Part shown: one piece after another, positions 5,345 through 31,873 of the stretch
How positions within the stretch are numbered: the stretch's first letter is position 1
Layout: each line of letters opens with the position of its first letter
Source of the DNA: Tindallia sp.
Lineage (GTDB): Bacteria; Bacillota; Clostridia; Peptostreptococcales; Tindalliaceae
Direction: 5' to 3'
Assembly (NCBI GenBank): GCA_007134225.1
Contig: SLLE01000093.1
Coordinates: 1 to 58,176, forward strand
Length of the DNA stretch: 58,176 nucleotides
Program-made: the position numbers and the translations under genes
Notes under the pieces: generated by a model
Databases searched by the model: none
The model's input: the letters and a program-made list of their open reading frames with translations, nothing else
Told to the model about the DNA's origin: nothing

Positions 5345-5430
5345 TGGTGCGGTAGGTGGGACTTGAACCCACACGCCATTAAGACACAGATCCCTCAAAC
5401 CTGCCTGTCTGCCGATTCCAGCACTACCGC
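5345..5430 (-). tRNA. tRNA-Leu, anticodon GAG
   Basis: An 86-nt class II tRNA with encoded CCA (complement of 5345-5347), acceptor stem GCGGTAG/CTACCGC, T arm GTGGGTTCAAGTCCCAC and a long variable arm. The anticodon loop TTGAGGG gives GAG, which reads CUC and CUU leucine codons. It is the second minus-strand leucine tRNA in 5.5 kb. Confidence 0.95.
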
Positions 5431-5455: not shown

Positions 5456-5484
5456 AGTATACCGCCTTCGGAGAGCCATGTCAA
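5456..5484 (-). promoter_or_regulatory. Near-consensus promoter of tRNA-Leu(GAG)
   Basis: The minus strand carries a consensus TTGACA (5479-5484), a 17-bp spacer and TATACT (5456-5461), ending 25 nt before the tRNA. This is a strong sigma-A promoter, as expected for a stable RNA. Confidence 0.93.
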
Positions 5485-5846: not shown

Positions 5847-5884
5847 AAACCGGCAGCTATGAATATGGATCAGGGAGAAAATCG

Positions 5885-8047
5885 ATGATAAACTCAACAG
5901 GTTGGATCAACATATGCAGCCAGGAAGTGCGGAAAATACATAAAAAACATGCAATAGAACCCCATCAGATATTGTTGTGGGTTTTGACACGTTTTCTTGA
6001 AGGGGTGTCGGATAAGGTTAAAACGGCTAACAAATTGACGTTATTAAAGCAAAAAAAATGTGGATTTCTAAAGGATATATTTGATTTGTTGGATCAGAAA
6101 TACTCAAACAGCGTAAATGAAGTTTTTGGCAGTTTCGTTATTCCGGAAACGCATGAACTGGAGAACCTTTACCAGAAAGTACTTAAAGGAAGCTATAAAG
6201 GTCAGACCGGAAGTTTCTATACTGGAAAAGAAATGGCAGCTTTTATGGTGCGTCAATCTTTAAGAGACCTCTTAGCCCATTCAGAAGCAGGGCATACCGT
6301 TGCTGATCGGCTTAAATACCTAAAAAGCATACGGATTATTGATATTTCCTGTGGGGGAGGCATGTTTCTGAGAGAAAGCTTAAAACAGTTATTTGCCCTT
6401 CAGACTGCAATGGCCATAGAACTGGAATGGAGATTTGATGATAACGAATGGATTGGCCATATTCTTCAGAACCAACTGACGGGTGTCGATCAGGAAGTGG
6501 AGGCGGCTGTATTGGCGGAAATTCTGCTTCGGCATGAAATGCCATCTGCAATTCAGGAAAGTATAGAAGTCCCCATATGCTGTGAAGACAGTCTCTTGTG
6601 GCATCCACCTCAAGACGGGAAATATGACCTTGTCATTGGTAATCCTCCTTATATTGGAGAAAAAGGAAATCAAACTATTTTTAAAACAATCAAGGACACG
6701 GATTTTGGCAAGCAGTACTATGAACGCAGCATGGATTATTTTTACTTTTTCCTTTATCGAGGCAGTGAATTGTTAAAGGACAAAGGAAGGTTATGCTATA
6801 TCACCACTGCTTACTTTGCGACGGCGGACGGTGGAAAGAAACTGAGAAAATATCTGGCCAATCACTTACAATTTCATTGGATTATTCAACTCGGAAATAA
6901 GAAGGTATTCCAACAGGCAAAAGGGCAGCATAACCTGATTTACAGCTTGACAAAAAAAGATAATGATCTGACAAAGCCGGTAACATTACTTTTTGTGGAT
7001 GCATATGAAGGTAAAACGAAGGAGTTGTTTGATGCTCTAAAACGTGAAGGTATTCACAGAAAAATTTCTGGCGTCAGGACCACCACGTACGAATCATCAT
7101 CAGCTATATTTGATGAAAGAGGACAACTATTGTTAAAGCAGCCGACTATAACAAAACCTGCCTTAGAAAAATTAATCACCCAATCGACTTATCAGTTAAA
7201 GGATGTATGCACAGTTAATCAGGGACTGGTCAGCGGAGCAGACAAAGTAACGGAAAAACATCGGAAGGTCCATTCGGATTGGAAAGAAAACCGGGGTATT
7301 TTTGTTCTGACAATTGAAGAAATAGATGCGCTGCGTTTTTCAGAAGAAGAAAAAACATTTTTGAAGCCATTTCACAAAAACAGTGATATTTTGCCATTTC
7401 ATGCACGCAAGAGAGAAGATCAATGGATCTTATATGTCACAGATCAAAATATGCCGGATATTCGAGACTATCCAAGGATTCGCGAACATTTGGAAAAATT
7501 CCGTCCGGTTCTTCAAAAAAGACGAGAAGTTCAGATGGATATCCGAAAATGGTACGCGTTGCATTGGCCCAGAAGGGCATCGTTATTTGAAAAGCCTAAA
7601 ATAGTGGTCCCTCAGCGGGGGGCATATAATATTTTTGCCTGGGTGCCGGAGGCCTGGTACGCCAGCGCTGATGTTTATTACATTCAAATGAAGCCGGAGG
7701 CATGGTTTTCCCCTCTCTATTTACTGGGTTGGCTCAACTCATCCTTATGCTATGCTTATTTATCTTTCTATGGTAAAACAAAAGGGGAGGATTTGGAGCT
7801 ATACGCGACACCATTGAAATCGATTCCGGTTCCAATGCCAACGAGTTTTCAGCAGGAAGAATCAGTAATGAAGCTAGTGGAAACGCTGATGAATGAGAAT
7901 GAAATGAAGGATAGCATTCGTGAGCGGTGCTGGAACCATTTGGACTGCTTGTTTTTGGAAGGGCACGGCATAAACGGAGAAACAGCGGAAATGATCAATT
8001 CGAAGGCTGAGACGCTTCGTAAAAATATCCGCCGAAGAAACTGGTGA
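5885..8047 (+). CDS. Solitary N6-adenine DNA methyltransferase (Eco57I/TaqI-like, CamA-like)
   Basis: A 720-aa S-adenosylmethionine-dependent adenine methyltransferase. Motif I is IIDISCGGGMFL near residue 150 and catalytic motif IV is NPPY at 253-256. A C-terminal TaqI/Eco57I-type target recognition region (about 430-690) contains IRKWYALHW and ASADVYYI, which resemble my recollection of Clostridioides difficile CamA. The N-terminal 100 or so residues precede a GSFYTGKEMA segment that matches the usual beginning of the catalytic domain. I see no PD-(D/E)xK nuclease motif and no restriction gene next to it, so it is probably epigenetic rather than a restriction system. The ATG at 5885 follows GGGAG. 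The target sequence cannot be predicted. Its last 174 bp overlap the convergent MBL gene. Confidence 0.85.
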   Translation: MINSTGWINICSQEVRKIHKKHAIEPHQILLWVLTRFLEGVSDKVKTANKLTLLKQKKCGFLKDIFDLLDQKYSNSVNEVFGSFVIPETHELENLYQKVLKGSYKGQTGSFYTGKEMAAFMVRQSLRDLLAHSEAGHTVADRLKYLKSIRIIDISCGGGMFLRESLKQLFALQTAMAIELEWRFDDNEWIGHILQNQLTGVDQEVEAAVLAEILLRHEMPSAIQESIEVPICCEDSLLWHPPQDGKYDLVIGNPPYIGEKGNQTIFKTIKDTDFGKQYYERSMDYFYFFLYRGSELLKDKGRLCYITTAYFATADGGKKLRKYLANHLQFHWIIQLGNKKVFQQAKGQHNLIYSLTKKDNDLTKPVTLLFVDAYEGKTKELFDALKREGIHRKISGVRTTTYESSSAIFDERGQLLLKQPTITKPALEKLITQSTYQLKDVCTVNQGLVSGADKVTEKHRKVHSDWKENRGIFVLTIEEIDALRFSEEEKTFLKPFHKNSDILPFHARKREDQWILYVTDQNMPDIRDYPRIREHLEKFRPVLQKRREVQMDIRKWYALHWPRRASLFEKPKIVVPQRGAYNIFAWVPEAWYASADVYYIQMKPEAWFSPLYLLGWLNSSLCYAYLSFYGKTKGEDLELYATPLKSIPVPMPTSFQQEESVMKLVETLMNENEMKDSIRERCWNHLDCLFLEGHGINGETAEMINSKAETLRKNIRRRNW

Positions 8048-8902
8048 TAGGTTCACAGGCGCCTGATGAGACCATATTTTCTCTCCGTCACTGTATAAAA
8101 TGACGGAACCCTTCAGGTCACTACGATAGATCCAAACGCCTGCAGCTTCTAGACGATGGATAACCTGGTCGCTGGGATGGCCATAGGGATTGTCGATGGA
8201 GCAGGATATTAAGGCAATCTTTGGTTGGACGGCATTTAGAAATGGCTGAGTGGTTGACGTGCTGCTGCCATGATGCCCAACTTTTAAAACTTCGGAAGAA
8301 AGTTGCTCCGGCGAAAAGTAGTTCAGCAGATCCATTTCTGCGCCGGATTCTAAATCCCCGGTAAATAAAAAGGACATCTCATCATGAATTAGCCTTAGGA
8401 CGACAGACCAGTCGTTGAGGTTTGAGCCATAATAAATACCTGTGTATAAAATTTCGAAGGAGACATCTCTCTCGATGGAATGTTGAGAGGATGCTTGAAC
8501 GACTTGAATATCAGCCTGACTTTCCAGCACTGTTTCCAGGAAGGATTCATATAGCAGGCTGGTATGTGCTGCTGCTGGCATGATCACGTGGTGCACCGGG
8601 AGTTCTTTCATTACCGGTATCAATCCACCGATGTGATCGGCATGCGGATGAGTTGCAATCATATAATCAATTTGATTTACATGATGACGCTTCAAATAAG
8701 CGATTAACTGATCGCTTTCTTGAGGGAGGCCGCCATCAATTAACATGGTGATGCCTTCAGGCGTTTTGATCAAAAAACTATCTCCCTGACCAATATCGAT
8801 CATATGGACACTTAAGTGGGAATCGTCCGACGAATGAAGGCAACCTGCCAATAACAGCGAGGTGGCTATTATGATTATGATCAATTTTCGGCATGGATTC
8901 AT
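7874..8902 (-). CDS. ComEC-type metallo-beta-lactamase-fold lipoprotein
   Basis: A 342-aa protein with a lipobox LLLAGC (Cys21) followed by the MBL fold that normally ends ComEC: VHMIDIGQGDS, LIDGG, the metal site THPHADH (H85, H87, D89, H90), TGD (D183), KVGHHGSS (210-211) and NPYGHPS. It should be a metal-dependent phosphodiesterase or nuclease on the outer membrane face. The ComEC encoded downstream lacks this domain, so this may be its separate partner (inference). The MBL core ends near residue 285; residues 286-342 are encoded antisense to the methyltransferase end and look like non-native sequence, so the original stop codon may be lost. A GGAG site lies about 10 nt before the ATG at 8902. 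Confidence 0.85.
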   Translation of the reverse strand: MNPCRKLIIIIIATSLLLAGCLHSSDDSHLSVHMIDIGQGDSFLIKTPEGITMLIDGGLPQESDQLIAYLKRHHVNQIDYMIATHPHADHIGGLIPVMKELPVHHVIMPAAAHTSLLYESFLETVLESQADIQVVQASSQHSIERDVSFEILYTGIYYGSNLNDWSVVLRLIHDEMSFLFTGDLESGAEMDLLNYFSPEQLSSEVLKVGHHGSSTSTTQPFLNAVQPKIALISCSIDNPYGHPSDQVIHRLEAAGVWIYRSDLKGSVILYSDGEKIWSHQAPVNLSPVSSADIFTKRLSLRIDHFRCFSVYAVPFQKQAVQMVPAPLTNAILHFILIHQRFH

Positions 8903-11704: not shown

Positions 11705-12823
11705 ATGAAAAAACCGCTAATGATCACTGCGATCAGTATTATTTTAATATTCCAGAGTTTTGTTGCGGCTCAGGATTTAATTGAAAATAGCGCTGAAGAA
11801 GCAATGGAAACAATGCGAGGACTGGTTTTGGAGGTGGAAGAATCTGGTCTGGATGATGTTTTTGTCGTGCAAGAAGTGACACTGGAGATTTACAGCGGAT
11901 CATTGGAAGGAACCATTGAAGTGGTTGAAAATCACCTGAGTGATCACCCGGTTTATGATATTCCTGTTGAACCGGGAGATCGGGTTTTATTGATGAAAGA
12001 AGTTTCCGAAAATGGCGACTATGGATTACATATTACGGAATATGTTCGTGATCGTTCCATCTTTAAGTTAACGGTGGTTTTTGCCATGCTGCTATTGCTG
12101 GTAGGGCGCTGGAAAGGGCTGAAAACCTTATTGACGCTGAGCATTACTTTTTTCATGATTGTTCAGGTGTTGCTGCCAGGTATGTTAAAGGGTTATTCTC
12201 CGATATTGCTATCACTCTTTAGTTCTTTTGTGATCACGTTGGTAACTATTTTTATCATTAATGGTGTTAACAGCAAGAGCTTCTCGGCAATAATTGGAAT
12301 ATTTGGGGGATTGATAGCGGCTGGCATTGTTATGTTTTGGGCTGGCTCACAAGTGAAACTGACAGGACTTTCCAGCGAAGAAGCCACCATGCTTATGTAT
12401 ATTCCACAGTCAGTCAGCTTTGACTTTCGTGATCTGCTTTTTGCCGGTATCATTATGGGTGCTCTGGGTGCAGTGATGGATGTAGGTATATCCGTAGCAT
12501 CAGCGATGGAAGAGGTTAGACGGGTTCATCCGAGTATATCCGTAGGGGAGCTGATGAAATCCGGGATGAACGTGGGGCAGGATATTATGGGAACGATGTC
12601 CAATACGTTAATACTGGCATATACCGGAGCGGCTTTGCCTCTGTTGCTTTTGTTCATGGCTTATGACGCAACGATGATAGAGATTCTTAATCTGGATATT
12701 ATTGCAACAGAAGTGGTACGAGCATTGTCCGGGAGTGTCGGTCTTGTGCTTACGGTTCCAATGACGGTTCTGGCCAGCGCCGTTTTACTCAACAGAAACA
12801 CGAAGAAAACGCCCAAAGGTTGA
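11705..12823 (+). CDS. YibE/F family membrane protein
   Basis: A 372-aa protein of the YibE/F-like family. It has an N-terminal signal-like helix, an extracytoplasmic domain of about 100 residues (including EPGDRVLLMKE) and about seven membrane segments, with the characteristic GALGAVMDVGISVASAMEEV stretch and the later GQDIMGTMSNTLILAY. The family is widespread in Gram-positive bacteria and its substrate is unknown. ATG 11705 is chosen over 11684 because GGAAGG sits directly before it and the resulting N-terminus is a clean signal. Confidence 0.88.
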   Translation: MKKPLMITAISIILIFQSFVAAQDLIENSAEEAMETMRGLVLEVEESGLDDVFVVQEVTLEIYSGSLEGTIEVVENHLSDHPVYDIPVEPGDRVLLMKEVSENGDYGLHITEYVRDRSIFKLTVVFAMLLLLVGRWKGLKTLLTLSITFFMIVQVLLPGMLKGYSPILLSLFSSFVITLVTIFIINGVNSKSFSAIIGIFGGLIAAGIVMFWAGSQVKLTGLSSEEATMLMYIPQSVSFDFRDLLFAGIIMGALGAVMDVGISVASAMEEVRRVHPSISVGELMKSGMNVGQDIMGTMSNTLILAYTGAALPLLLLFMAYDATMIEILNLDIIATEVVRALSGSVGLVLTVPMTVLASAVLLNRNTKKTPKG

Positions 12824-12870
12824 AACGATTGGCATGGGTTGAAAACAAAGACAGCAGAGGTGAGGCAAAA

Positions 12871-14394
12871 ATGAAAAGACCCATGATAGCGGTAGGGATA
12901 TTTTTTTTGGTGGGCGTTGCAGTTGCATTCAATGCAAGATTTTCTATGTCCAACCTATGGCTGTTAGGATGCTGTTTGACAGCAGGTTATTTGTTTATGA
13001 AAAATCGAAAACGGTATGCAATATGGTTGTTGCTTATCTTTCTTGTTGCCGGCATGCACCTGGGAAGCAGGCATCAAAACCAGGTAACCTTAATCCATTA
13101 CCTGGAATGTGGCAACATCCAAAGGCACCAGATTTCCCACATTGAAGGAAGAATGACGGATATTCATCACAACCGGTTTGGGCATGTCAGCTACAGCGTT
13201 GAAATTACCGGACTTCGTTTAAGAACGAGCCCACGAACCAGTGCAATGGGAGGCCGGGTTATGGTCGAAGCCGGAAGCGATCATGCTTCATATGCGACAC
13301 ATAAGCCCGGAGATCGTATCATCATCAATCAATTTTCTTTAAAGGAAAGCTTGCTGAACAATGTGGAAAACAATTATTATCAGCATTTGAAAGAACGTGG
13401 ATTCCAAGGCATTCTAAAAGTGGAATCAAAAGATATTCAGCATGTATCTGTTAATCGATTCTATCTGATGCAAATGGCAGATAAAGCCAAATATTCGATG
13501 CAGTCTTTCGTTCAGCAATACTTAGATCCGCCTGAAAGCATGGTGCTGAAAAGTATTATGCTGGGTAACCAAGGGTACTTATCCTCGGATGTTCGGAGGG
13601 TTTTTGCCAGAACTGGTACAGCTCATATCATTGCTGTTTCGGGTCTTCATACGGGTATTATTGCGATGGCAGCTCACGAAGTCTCTAAAGCTTTGGGTGC
13701 AGGCCTTTGGAAAGCAAAACTGATTACGATAGCACTGGTATGGTTTTATGCATTGATGGCCGGGTTTCCAATATCCATATTAAGAGCTGGATTCATGATC
13801 ACGATCATGCTGTCTTCTTTTTATCTCCAACGGCATTATGATCCTGGAAATGCATTGATGCTGGCAGCGATGATTTTTGTAGCAATCGATCCTTCCATGA
13901 TTGGAACCATATCCTTTCAACTTAGTTTTCTTGCTACTGCATCCATTATATGGGGCATGTCTTTTGTTGAGAATAACAAAGCAATAAAAATGTCAATGTT
14001 GAAGCTGCTCATAATTACCTTGATCGTTCAAATCGGCACCTGGCCAATTGTGGCCTATCATTTTAAAGAATTCTCTATCATTTCTCCACTATCAAACGTA
14101 CTGATCGTTCCGCTGCTGGGGATGTTGATGATGATGACACTGGCAGCCTGGTCCTTAAACTGGATTCCATTGGTTGCAGGATTATTGATGCATGTTGTGA
14201 ATGGCATTTTAATTTATATGATACGGTTGATGAGTTTTCTGGCTGAATGGAATTATGCGGCTGTAAGTATCGAAGTCATGACATTTAAAACAGTCGTCCT
14301 ATACTACTTGATGATGGCAGGACTACTGCTTCTGGCAGTAAAAATCAAAAATGAAAAGCATTATATAGACAGGAAGGTTTACGAAAATGGATAG
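12871..14394 (+). CDS. comEC: ComEC/Rec2 DNA-uptake channel, lacking the MBL domain
   Basis: A 507-aa polytopic membrane protein. It has N-terminal membrane segments, an OB-like extracellular part (about 95-200) and the Competence domain (about 220-490) with the RTGTAHIIAVSGLHTG signature. Full-length ComEC proteins are about 700-800 aa and end in an MBL domain that is absent here; the reading frame stops cleanly. It would transport single-stranded DNA across the membrane. The ATG at 12871 follows AGAGGTGAGG. The position before holA is that of comEC in Bacillus. No comEA is present in the window. The MBL lipoprotein at 7874-8902 could supply the missing part. Confidence 0.9.
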   Translation: MKRPMIAVGIFFLVGVAVAFNARFSMSNLWLLGCCLTAGYLFMKNRKRYAIWLLLIFLVAGMHLGSRHQNQVTLIHYLECGNIQRHQISHIEGRMTDIHHNRFGHVSYSVEITGLRLRTSPRTSAMGGRVMVEAGSDHASYATHKPGDRIIINQFSLKESLLNNVENNYYQHLKERGFQGILKVESKDIQHVSVNRFYLMQMADKAKYSMQSFVQQYLDPPESMVLKSIMLGNQGYLSSDVRRVFARTGTAHIIAVSGLHTGIIAMAAHEVSKALGAGLWKAKLITIALVWFYALMAGFPISILRAGFMITIMLSSFYLQRHYDPGNALMLAAMIFVAIDPSMIGTISFQLSFLATASIIWGMSFVENNKAIKMSMLKLLIITLIVQIGTWPIVAYHFKEFSIISPLSNVLIVPLLGMLMMMTLAAWSLNWIPLVAGLLMHVVNGILIYMIRLMSFLAEWNYAAVSIEVMTFKTVVLYYLMMAGLLLLAVKIKNEKHYIDRKVYENG

Positions 14395-15010: not shown

Positions 15011-16048
15011 ATGCAGGAATTGATTAAGTTGCAGAACATACCGGTAGAGAAAATCGAACAGACCTACTTTATAACTGGTGAGGAAACATTCCTGATGCGA
15101 CGTTTTATTGAGTTGCTGAAGCTTAAAATAGCCCCTGGTGCCATGGAAGATTTCAACTTGGCAAGATTTGAAGGAAAGGCTTTTTCGGTGGATATGTTAT
15201 TGGAGAGCTGTGAAACACTGCCGGTAATGTCTGAGAAAAAGCTGGTTGTTTTAAAAAATCCATGGTTCCTGGAATCGAAAGGTGCAGCTCTGGACAGTAG
15301 AGACGAAGGGAAGCTCAAGGCATATCTGAATTCGCCGCCGGACAGTACATGTTTAGCGGTTTATTGTGAAACAAAGCCGGATGGCCGAAAAGGTATTACG
15401 AAACTGCTAAAAAAGACAAGTTGTTCCGTTGAGTTTCAGCGGTTAAAAGAAAGTGAATTGAAAAAGTGGATGTCATCTGAATGTGGTAAAAGAGGAAAGA
15501 CCATTTCTGCAAAAGCCTTGAATGCGCTGGTTGATAACATTGATTATTTAAGCCGTAATCCTTCACAGTCTCTGTATGACATCAGTAGTGAAATTGAAAA
15601 AATGGCTGCATACATGGGAACAAAGAAGGAAGTAACAGAGGAAGAGGTAAAAGAAAGCTCAATCTACACATTTCAGAACGATGTATTTCAATTGATAGAC
15701 AGCCTAAGTCAGAAAAAAACGGCCGAAACACAGGTGAGGTTTCGACAGTTGATGGCAGATGGTGAACCGGTGATGAAAATCATTGCTTTTCTTAGAAATC
15801 AGTTTAAAACCATGCTCCGCGTGAAAGAACTGGATCAACATGGCTATACAGCGGCAAAAATGGCTACGAAGCTTAAACAGCATCCCTTCGCTGTTCAAAA
15901 AAGTCTAAAATACAGCAAGAATTTTGAGGAAAGAAAGCTGATAGAATTGTTGAATCGTTTTAATCAGCTTGATCGGCGATTAAAAAGCGGCAAAATGGAT
16001 GCAGTTGCCAGTATGGAATTAATGATGGTGGAAATATGCAAGCATTAG
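15011..16048 (+). CDS. holA: DNA polymerase III subunit delta
   Basis: A 345-aa clamp-loader delta subunit (YqeN type) that opens the beta clamp so it can be loaded at primers. Recognisable elements are the N-terminal YFITGEETFLMRR, then LPVMSEKKLVVLKN, and a C-terminal helical domain with FRQLMADGEPVMKIIAFLRNQ and LDRRLKSG. The start ATG follows AAGGAG at a normal distance. It sits between comEC and the opposite-strand rpsT, as in Bacillus. Confidence 0.94.
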   Translation: MQELIKLQNIPVEKIEQTYFITGEETFLMRRFIELLKLKIAPGAMEDFNLARFEGKAFSVDMLLESCETLPVMSEKKLVVLKNPWFLESKGAALDSRDEGKLKAYLNSPPDSTCLAVYCETKPDGRKGITKLLKKTSCSVEFQRLKESELKKWMSSECGKRGKTISAKALNALVDNIDYLSRNPSQSLYDISSEIEKMAAYMGTKKEVTEEEVKESSIYTFQNDVFQLIDSLSQKKTAETQVRFRQLMADGEPVMKIIAFLRNQFKTMLRVKELDQHGYTAAKMATKLKQHPFAVQKSLKYSKNFEERKLIELLNRFNQLDRRLKSGKMDAVASMELMMVEICKH

Positions 16049-31360: not shown

Positions 31361-31873
31361 ATGCAAATTGAGAGCATTCTCATTTTTGTTGTTTTAATTG
31401 CGCTGTCTTCATTATTGAATAAAAAGAAACAGGGCCAGCAACAGCGGAGAAACCAACAAAAAACAATGACTTCACAGCAGCAGGAACAAAAATCTACACC
31501 AAATTCGCCTGTAGGCAAAACAGCTGCACCAAGCAAAAAAAGGTCGTTGCAGGATATTTTCAGAGAAATGCAAAGTGAATTGGAGGCCGAATACAAAAAA
31601 ACAACGGGTGAGCAGGAAAGTGATCAATATGAAGTAAAGCCGGCTCCGATAAAAAAATCAGATTCAGCAGACAAAAAGGTTTCAGCAACAAAAGACAAGA
31701 AAAAAAGAATGAAACCGCCGGAACCTACTGAAAAAACGAAGCAAAATAGTCCTATCTATTCTTATGAGATCAAAGATGAAATTCCTTTTAAGAGTTTGAA
31801 AATAAACCAGGATACCGTCTTCAACGGCATCATTTTTTCGGAGATTCTTGGCAAACCAAAGGGAAAACGGTAA
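31361..31873 (+). CDS. Hypothetical single-pass membrane protein
   Basis: A 170-aa protein I do not recognise. One N-terminal membrane helix (IESILIFVVLIALSSLL) is followed by a long polar Lys/Gln-rich, low-complexity tail. Its C-terminus contains a more ordered block (FKSLKINQDTVFNGIIFSEIL). It follows floA by 12 nt with an AAGGATG site, so it may be part of the flotillin unit. It takes the place where Bacillus has yqfB-yqfC-yqfD but does not resemble YqfC or YqfD. Confidence 0.7.
   Translation: MQIESILIFVVLIALSSLLNKKKQGQQQRRNQQKTMTSQQQEQKSTPNSPVGKTAAPSKKRSLQDIFREMQSELEAEYKKTTGEQESDQYEVKPAPIKKSDSADKKVSATKDKKKRMKPPEPTEKTKQNSPIYSYEIKDEIPFKSLKINQDTVFNGIIFSEILGKPKGKR

Follow-up and report, generated by a model that had tools for sequence, protein, structure and literature searches.

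Why would a bacterium keep a solitary DNA adenine methyltransferase resembling CamA, the sporulation regulator of C. difficile, beside a locus that seems to lack sporulation genes? The question is raised by an open reading frame at positions 5885–8047 (+ strand; ATG start, 720 amino acids plus stop) of the window, by which we mean the whole 58,176-nucleotide stretch of Tindallia sp. DNA analysed here. The reading that we favour, with a probability of roughly two in three, is that it encodes a solitary, vertically inherited, regulatory gamma-class DNA adenine methyltransferase of a lineage that is sister to CamA. Below, families carry arbitrary codes (f1 is the window's own; f2 and so on are others), and L and G denote fetched loci and genomes, respectively.

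The original prediction gave the protein methyltransferase motifs and a TaqI/Eco57I-type recognition domain, and both are found. Pfam matches, all above curated cut-offs, are Eco57I (8.6e-25), N6_Mtase (4.2e-10), TaqI_C (8e-10) and MmeI_Mtase (2.4e-8). Motif I for SAM binding, D-x-S-x-G, lies at residues 153–157 (6341–6355, +) with D153, S155 and G157 intact, and the catalytic motif IV, NPPY, is intact at residues 253–256 (6641–6652, +). A target-recognition domain (TRD) follows at about residues 416–697 (7130–7975, +; the boundary is approximate), which holds the conserved base contacts Q446, V449, R547, W561, R563, Q577, R578, S594, A595 and Y640. This is the gamma-class order of motif I, motif IV and C-terminal TRD, and on sequence grounds the open reading frame is confirmed as a gamma-class N6-adenine DNA methyltransferase without a nuclease domain. 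Its start codon is 6 bases downstream of gggaga at 5873–5878. The gap upstream of the gene also contains tRNA-Leu(GAG) at 5345–5430 (−), with a promoter-like site at 5484–5456 (−) that has 11 of 12 consensus bases. The host draft genome (2.35 Mb, 96.5% complete) has one match to the protein at E 0.001.

A structure model was obtained with AlphaFold2 from 19 input sequences (mean pLDDT 81). CamA is the closest PDB entry by sequence (E 8e-37, over residues 96–695 of the window protein), fills the top 33 rows of a Foldseek search with the model, and is the top fold match by VIA-align (7lt5_A; Z 33.4, 554 residues, rmsd 3.8). The next solved family by Foldseek is M.BseCI (PDB 7QW5; Z 26.4), a gamma-class methyltransferase of similar size, which we take to belong to a restriction-modification (R-M) system with the target ATCGAT.

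The enzyme had also been called solitary, with neither a nuclease domain nor a restriction gene nearby, and this holds. Pfam and NCBIfam find no nuclease family in the methyltransferase, and Pfam finds no restriction enzyme among 49 other window proteins, in a scan that left out a few open reading frames of up to 138 amino acids and antisense ones. The enzyme is an orphan in that its chain lacks a nuclease domain and the scanned neighbours lack a cognate endonuclease gene. The scanned genes include polA, coaE, the comEC parts, holA, lepA, the hrcA-grpE-dnaK-dnaJ cluster, phoH, era, recO, riboflavin genes and glycolysis genes. Between floA and phoH, a 170-residue gene without a Pfam match lies at 31361–31873 (+), in an interval that is presumably occupied by yqfC/yqfD and like sporulation genes in B. 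subtilis.

Nor does the N-terminus hold a PD-(D/E)xK nuclease, judging from the model and its aligned ranges. Residues 1–100 (5885–6184, +), which are little conserved and variable in the alignment, are predicted to be all-helical with no nuclease fold, forming an HsdM-like extension. The model aligns from its first residues to type I HsdM (2okc, starting residue 7), and its residue 1 pairs with residue 145 of DrdV and residue 157 of MmeI (type IIG/IIL), whose nuclease domains we assume to precede the aligned parts. A simple PD...(D/E/Q)xK pattern has no match in the window protein, but none either in five longer relatives, L048 among them. In a 92-row tree, the longer relatives L048, L060, L066, L067 and L116 adjoin the window clade. 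Because the pattern missed L048, where a nuclease-type site, VIELK, is recognised by eye in a part absent from the window protein, it is uninformative as a test, and the argument rests on the helical model and the part missing relative to DrdV and MmeI.

Type IIG profiles are among the PADLOC matches listed for the window protein, aligned in their methylase part only. The best match is a IIG profile in all four longer relatives scanned (L116 was left out), beginning at residue 2 in L048. Like type IIG/IIL enzymes (PADLOC PDLC03596; DrdV, MmeI), the window protein combines a helical domain, a gamma-class methyltransferase and a TRD in a single chain, but it lacks their N-terminal nuclease domain. 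As the N-terminus is helical and aligns past the nuclease of DrdV and MmeI, the enzyme is built like a type IIG enzyme minus its nuclease, and the modelled protein looks like a IIG-type scaffold from which this domain is missing. Two other identities were tried and rejected. A type IIG restriction enzyme would need a fused PD-(D/E)xK nuclease, for which the helical model and aligned ranges leave no place. For BREX PglX, the match spans only profile positions 507–647 of 1210 with a score of 56.6 against a cut-off of 500, and there are no brx genes among the scanned window neighbours.

The likeness to CamA was then a matter of degree. CamA (PDB 7LNI, 7LT5) and the window enzyme are both gamma-class, monofunctional (methyltransferase plus TRD) and solitary; besides the fold, they share the S-x-G-x-G motif, NPPY, K172 (CamA numbering) and the residues reading C1, A2, A3 and A4. 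On the other hand, their identity is 26% in the alignment used, the window enzyme has an extra helical N-terminus of about 95 residues, it resides at comEC-holA rather than ptsH-ptsI, and its host family lacks Spo0A.

In a 53-row tree, 21 locus-labelled rows cluster with support of 82/89, and the CamA groups split off at 100/100. In the 92-row tree, 35 rows that were assigned to the comEC-holA type ('hol') by the gene tables of their loci form one clade (SH-aLRT 94), and a split with SH-aLRT 100 sets these and 11 further relatives apart from the 46 CamA-like rows. The 35-row clade is moderately supported and includes some long branches, those of f2 and f12 blurring the finer order. L065 (a fragment), L062–L064 (three f6 rows) and L089–L103 (short loci from the order search) were omitted from the trees, and the order-search loci were hand-picked rather than randomly sampled. 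The clade covers six families and 28 genera of one order. Its closest named relative to the window protein, in L031 from a Tindallia MAG (Tindalliaceae, Peptostreptococcales), is 56% identical. No description of the clade was found in the titles and abstract openings that literature searches gave, although the first CamA paper (Nat Microbiol 2020) or a 2021 survey of conserved methyltransferases may mention it.

The CamA-like rows have an address of their own. Among 24 such loci examined in f4, which we infer to be the family of C. difficile since it holds CamA, 20 have ptsH and/or ptsI at most four genes downstream (L051, L052, L054, L055, L124–L138 and L143); ptsH is seven genes away in L142, and pts genes are not visible in L139–L141. 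The L052 protein aligns without gaps to the PDB CamA over 577 residues but is not identical to it, and its locus adjoins ptsH-ptsI. The 21 pts-linked CamA-like loci represent 17 genera of f4, which contrasts with CamA being called 'rare among other bacteria' in a passage of one paper (PMC8187626) and 'specific to C. difficile' in a passage of another (PMC13395437). Passages of published studies (PMC6700114, PMC10745947, PMC9503626, PMC5027557, PMC6507227) also report m6A at CAAAAAR in several Clostridium species, in Eubacterium limosum and in Acetobacterium woodii; in the last of these, cloning showed Awo_c14460 to be responsible for the methylation. The published m6A motif of such clostridial methyltransferases (e.g. 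Awo_c14460, PMC6700114) is asymmetric and rich in A, like that of CamA.

Fifteen base-contacting residues given in passages of the CamA structure paper (PMC8187626) were used to compare DNA reading, with the numbering of CamA. The window protein is identical to CamA at eight (K172, Q346, R425, W439, R441, S472, A473 and Y521) and differs at seven (H171E, I349V, Q438H, Y455Q, K456R, S514G and I517L). The readers of C1/A2/A3/A4, namely R425, W439, R441, Q346, S472, A473 and Y521, are kept, and the changed contacts gather near A5 (position 5) and the minor groove. Throughout the window clade (35/35), we found E171, Q346, R425, W439, R441, R456, S472, A473, G514, L517 and Y521; V349 is present in 34 rows and K172 in 31, position 438 is Q (27), H (7) or T (1), and position 455 is Q (25) or H (10). 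All 46 CamA-like rows have K172, Q346, I349, R425, W439, R441, K456, S472, A473 and Y521. Because G514 and L517 are also found among CamA-like rows, the clade-specific changes are at 171, 349, 455 and 456 (H171E, I349V, Y455Q/H and K456R). Thus, 'CamA-like' stands for the fold and the DNA-reading residues but does not extend to CamA proper, from which the enzyme is set apart by the tree split, the locus and these four changes. It belongs to a sister lineage of CamA and is not a CamA ortholog.

The contacts are unusually constant within the clade, as 11 of 13 TRD contacts reach an invariance of at least 97% where 2.2 would be expected, a result that none of 20,000 draws equals. M.BseCI differs at all 15 CamA contacts, as read from the alignment. 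Among 60 phage-borne homologs, NPPY is present in all 59 that are aligned there, and R425, W439 and R441 occur together in none of the 24 that have these columns aligned, with 19 different triplets at the three positions. However, the contact pattern is no mark of solitary enzymes as such, because ten non-clade relatives in the IIG-like group share R425 and W439 with the clade; L066 of the same group has S425 and T439.

With the readers of C1/A2/A3/A4 kept, the target would start with CAAA. We predict that it is asymmetric and of the CAAA type, either CAAAAA or a sequence departing from it at position 5 or later; the four clade-specific changes may make it different from that of CamA. In the window, CAAAAA occurs 157 times with 143 expected, being neither clearly over- nor under-represented. 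Counts of CAAACA, CAAAGA, CAAATA and other motifs there carry no useful signal, CAAAGA being lowest at 0.72 of expectation (45 sites).

Gene tables of 76 stretches place the window-type enzyme mostly in a block of comEC-holA-rpsT-lepA. Two markers of this conserved locus in the window are the membrane part of comEC at 12820–14394 (+; profile matches and gene tables) and holA, encoding DNA polymerase III delta, at 15011–16048 (+; gene tables and Pfam). One or both are visible in 27 of the 35 clade rows. The remaining eight (L042, L061, L108, L113, L114, L120, L121 and L123) show other genes of the block, comEC and holA being missing mostly because the contig or fetched stretch stops, although the stretch of L113 goes on without comEC. 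A further window-type group resides at other places (L104–L107 in f4, L050 and L117 in f9), with ligA and gatCA adjoining in L104 and ligA in L050.

The block has structural variants. ComEC is a single chain of about 700–780 amino acids, where whole, in f2, f5, f11 and f12. In another arrangement, found in Tindalliaceae and also in family f3 (L031–L038, L109, L110), comEC is split: the metallo-beta-lactamase (MBL) part has its own gene, which is encoded on the other strand and separated by several genes from the part for the membrane domain. In the window, the MBL-fold gene, which matches the C-terminal part of ComEC, is convergent with the methyltransferase gene at 7874–8902 (−), and its 3′ end overlaps the latter by 174 bases (7874–8047). 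The overlap is 111 bases in each of L032–L034 of the same genus, and 39 or 0 bases in the next genus. Upstream of the enzyme in f2, f5, f11 and f12 is a small protein without a Pfam family, p145 (e.g. L041:10126–10563; also L039, L043–L046, L047, L049 and L059), whose C-terminal stretch, KHPYFKNP...IRL.TIMKYLKKK...D.DL.V, is nearly invariant. Its mean column identity is 56% (9 rows), compared with 43% for the enzyme (15 rows), and it extends to f8 genomes that lack a clear enzyme copy.

Could the enzyme serve DNA uptake or immunity against restriction, as a protective methyltransferase that labels incoming DNA, or the cell's own, close to the ComEC channel? It does share the block with comEC-holA, and in L047 and L059 it immediately precedes comEC in the same orientation, at a distance of 14 and 29 bases, respectively. 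In the window, however, comEC is 4.8 kb away with its C-terminal half in the separate convergent gene, and the remaining neighbours are housekeeping genes, which makes this role unlikely.

Alternatively, the gene could be the modification half of an R-M system whose endonuclease is elsewhere in the genome or recently lost. The closest non-clade relatives do include type IIG-like enzymes such as L048, and a passage of PMC4752239 describes a type II system whose endonuclease gene lies at a distance of 1.2 Mb. However, the gene block is constant across six families, the TRD is strongly conserved, and the 49 scanned window proteins include no restriction enzyme. Also counted against it, systems with asymmetric targets usually require two methylases or a fused nuclease. 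As for possible restriction partners, p145 has no Pfam match reaching the cut-off and is present in four genomes without a clear enzyme copy (G013, G024, G035 and G046), and p314, a second unnamed gene that other families conserve upstream of the enzyme, has no Pfam match in the two members scanned. Neither can be an obligate partner, because both are absent from all seven f1 genomes. We consider the R-M half quite improbable, and return to the solitary regulatory enzyme.

Matches to the window protein were found in 43 of 60 genomes at E 0.001 (host genome included), 49 of 391 genomes of the class at 1e-20, and 141 of 393 genomes of the order at 1e-15. When CamA was used as the query on the 60 genomes at 1e-10, every place matched was also matched by the window query, so that, at that sensitivity, the two lineages do not co-occur in any of the 60. 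In the order search, however, G526 combines a CamA-type gene (L131) with another matching open frame, 1223 amino acids long (1.3e-56), which may count against mutual exclusion in the wider sample. Viral contigs contain 68 loci with relatives, and the best-scoring one has a best-segment identity of 28% (short segments reach 40%), giving no sign of phage carriage of the clade in the viral collection. Vertical inheritance is the best reading.

Purifying selection on the window-type enzyme is shown by codon comparison. Three species pairs give gene-wide dN/dS values of 0.163, 0.149 and 0.227. With domain borders placed by codon count, the TRD evolves most slowly in two pairs (0.099 and 0.124), and in the third it is at 0.262 compared with 0.185 for the catalytic domain. 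Mean identity is also higher in the TRD than in the catalytic domain, 44% versus 39% in the window clade and 45% versus 39% in the CamA-like rows. The N-terminal extension is under weaker selection than the rest; its variability, together with the single copy, might be seen in a decayed or inactive relic. As the catalytic motifs are all intact and dN/dS is within 0.15–0.23, a relic is very improbable.

What the enzyme regulates had been left as a question, posed by a locus apparently without sporulation genes. The locus part is correct, as L111 has GPR and SpoIIP between holA and lepA, and the corresponding interval in the window is 575 bases with rpsT (−) in it and neither of these genes. The question itself can be sharpened toward a role outside sporulation. 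Among the 60 genomes, Spo0A_C is found in 30 and SpoIVA in 22. In the seven genomes of the window's family, six of which are 96.5–99% complete and one 75%, neither Spo0A nor SpoIVA was found in any, and the enzyme is present in all. A sporulation role in this family is therefore very unlikely, and the enzyme there probably regulates something other than spores.

The same holds more widely. Of 22 window-type carriers among the 60 genomes (G028 having a fragment), 11 have Spo0A and 11 do not, the latter being the seven f1 genomes, G017, G028, G039 and G054. Conversely, nine genomes with both Spo0A and SpoIVA (G012, G013, G024, G026, G035, G038, G040, G047 and G055) have no match better than 1.2e-8. 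Three CamA-like carriers, G009, G031 and G041, also lack Spo0A. From this distribution, the enzyme group is neither required for sporulation genes nor lost with them. That the window enzyme is a true CamA ortholog controlling sporulation, as the top PDB match and the eight identical contacts might suggest, is hardly credible in view of its different clade and locus and of these Spo0A and SpoIVA counts.

For the solitary, sister-lineage methyltransferase, the following mechanism is conceivable. The enzyme would bind DNA as a monomer, squeeze out the final adenine of an A-rich, asymmetric target starting with CAAA and methylate it, with base flipping as in CamA. The methylation state of such sites might then change how transcription or replication proteins bind, an effect published for CamA at the spoIIE promoter; the genes affected here would presumably be non-sporulation genes. 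In a passage of PMC4752239, sites in front of genes that stay reproducibly unmethylated are described as characteristic of orphan methyltransferases. The enzyme may descend from type IIG enzymes or share an ancestor with them, and it lacks their nuclease domain. The regulatory role is proposed by analogy only.

CamA, described as C. difficile-specific in a passage of PMC13395437, attracts study both for its control of sporulation and as a drug target. That a sister enzyme is retained in one gene block across an order, in hosts devoid of Spo0A, and that many other genera have CamA-type enzymes suggests an ancestral function outside sporulation, and relatives of CamA across the order bear on the selectivity of any CamA inhibitor. 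Tentatively, two A-tract-reading lineages of solitary methyltransferases, that of CamA close to ptsH-ptsI and that of the window enzyme at comEC-holA, might make up a core epigenetic layer, independent of sporulation, in much of Peptostreptococcales. If so, CamA would have been recruited to sporulation in C. difficile only late, and the original task of these enzymes, perhaps to link gene expression with replication or with DNA uptake, would be readable in the Spo0A-less relatives of Tindallia.
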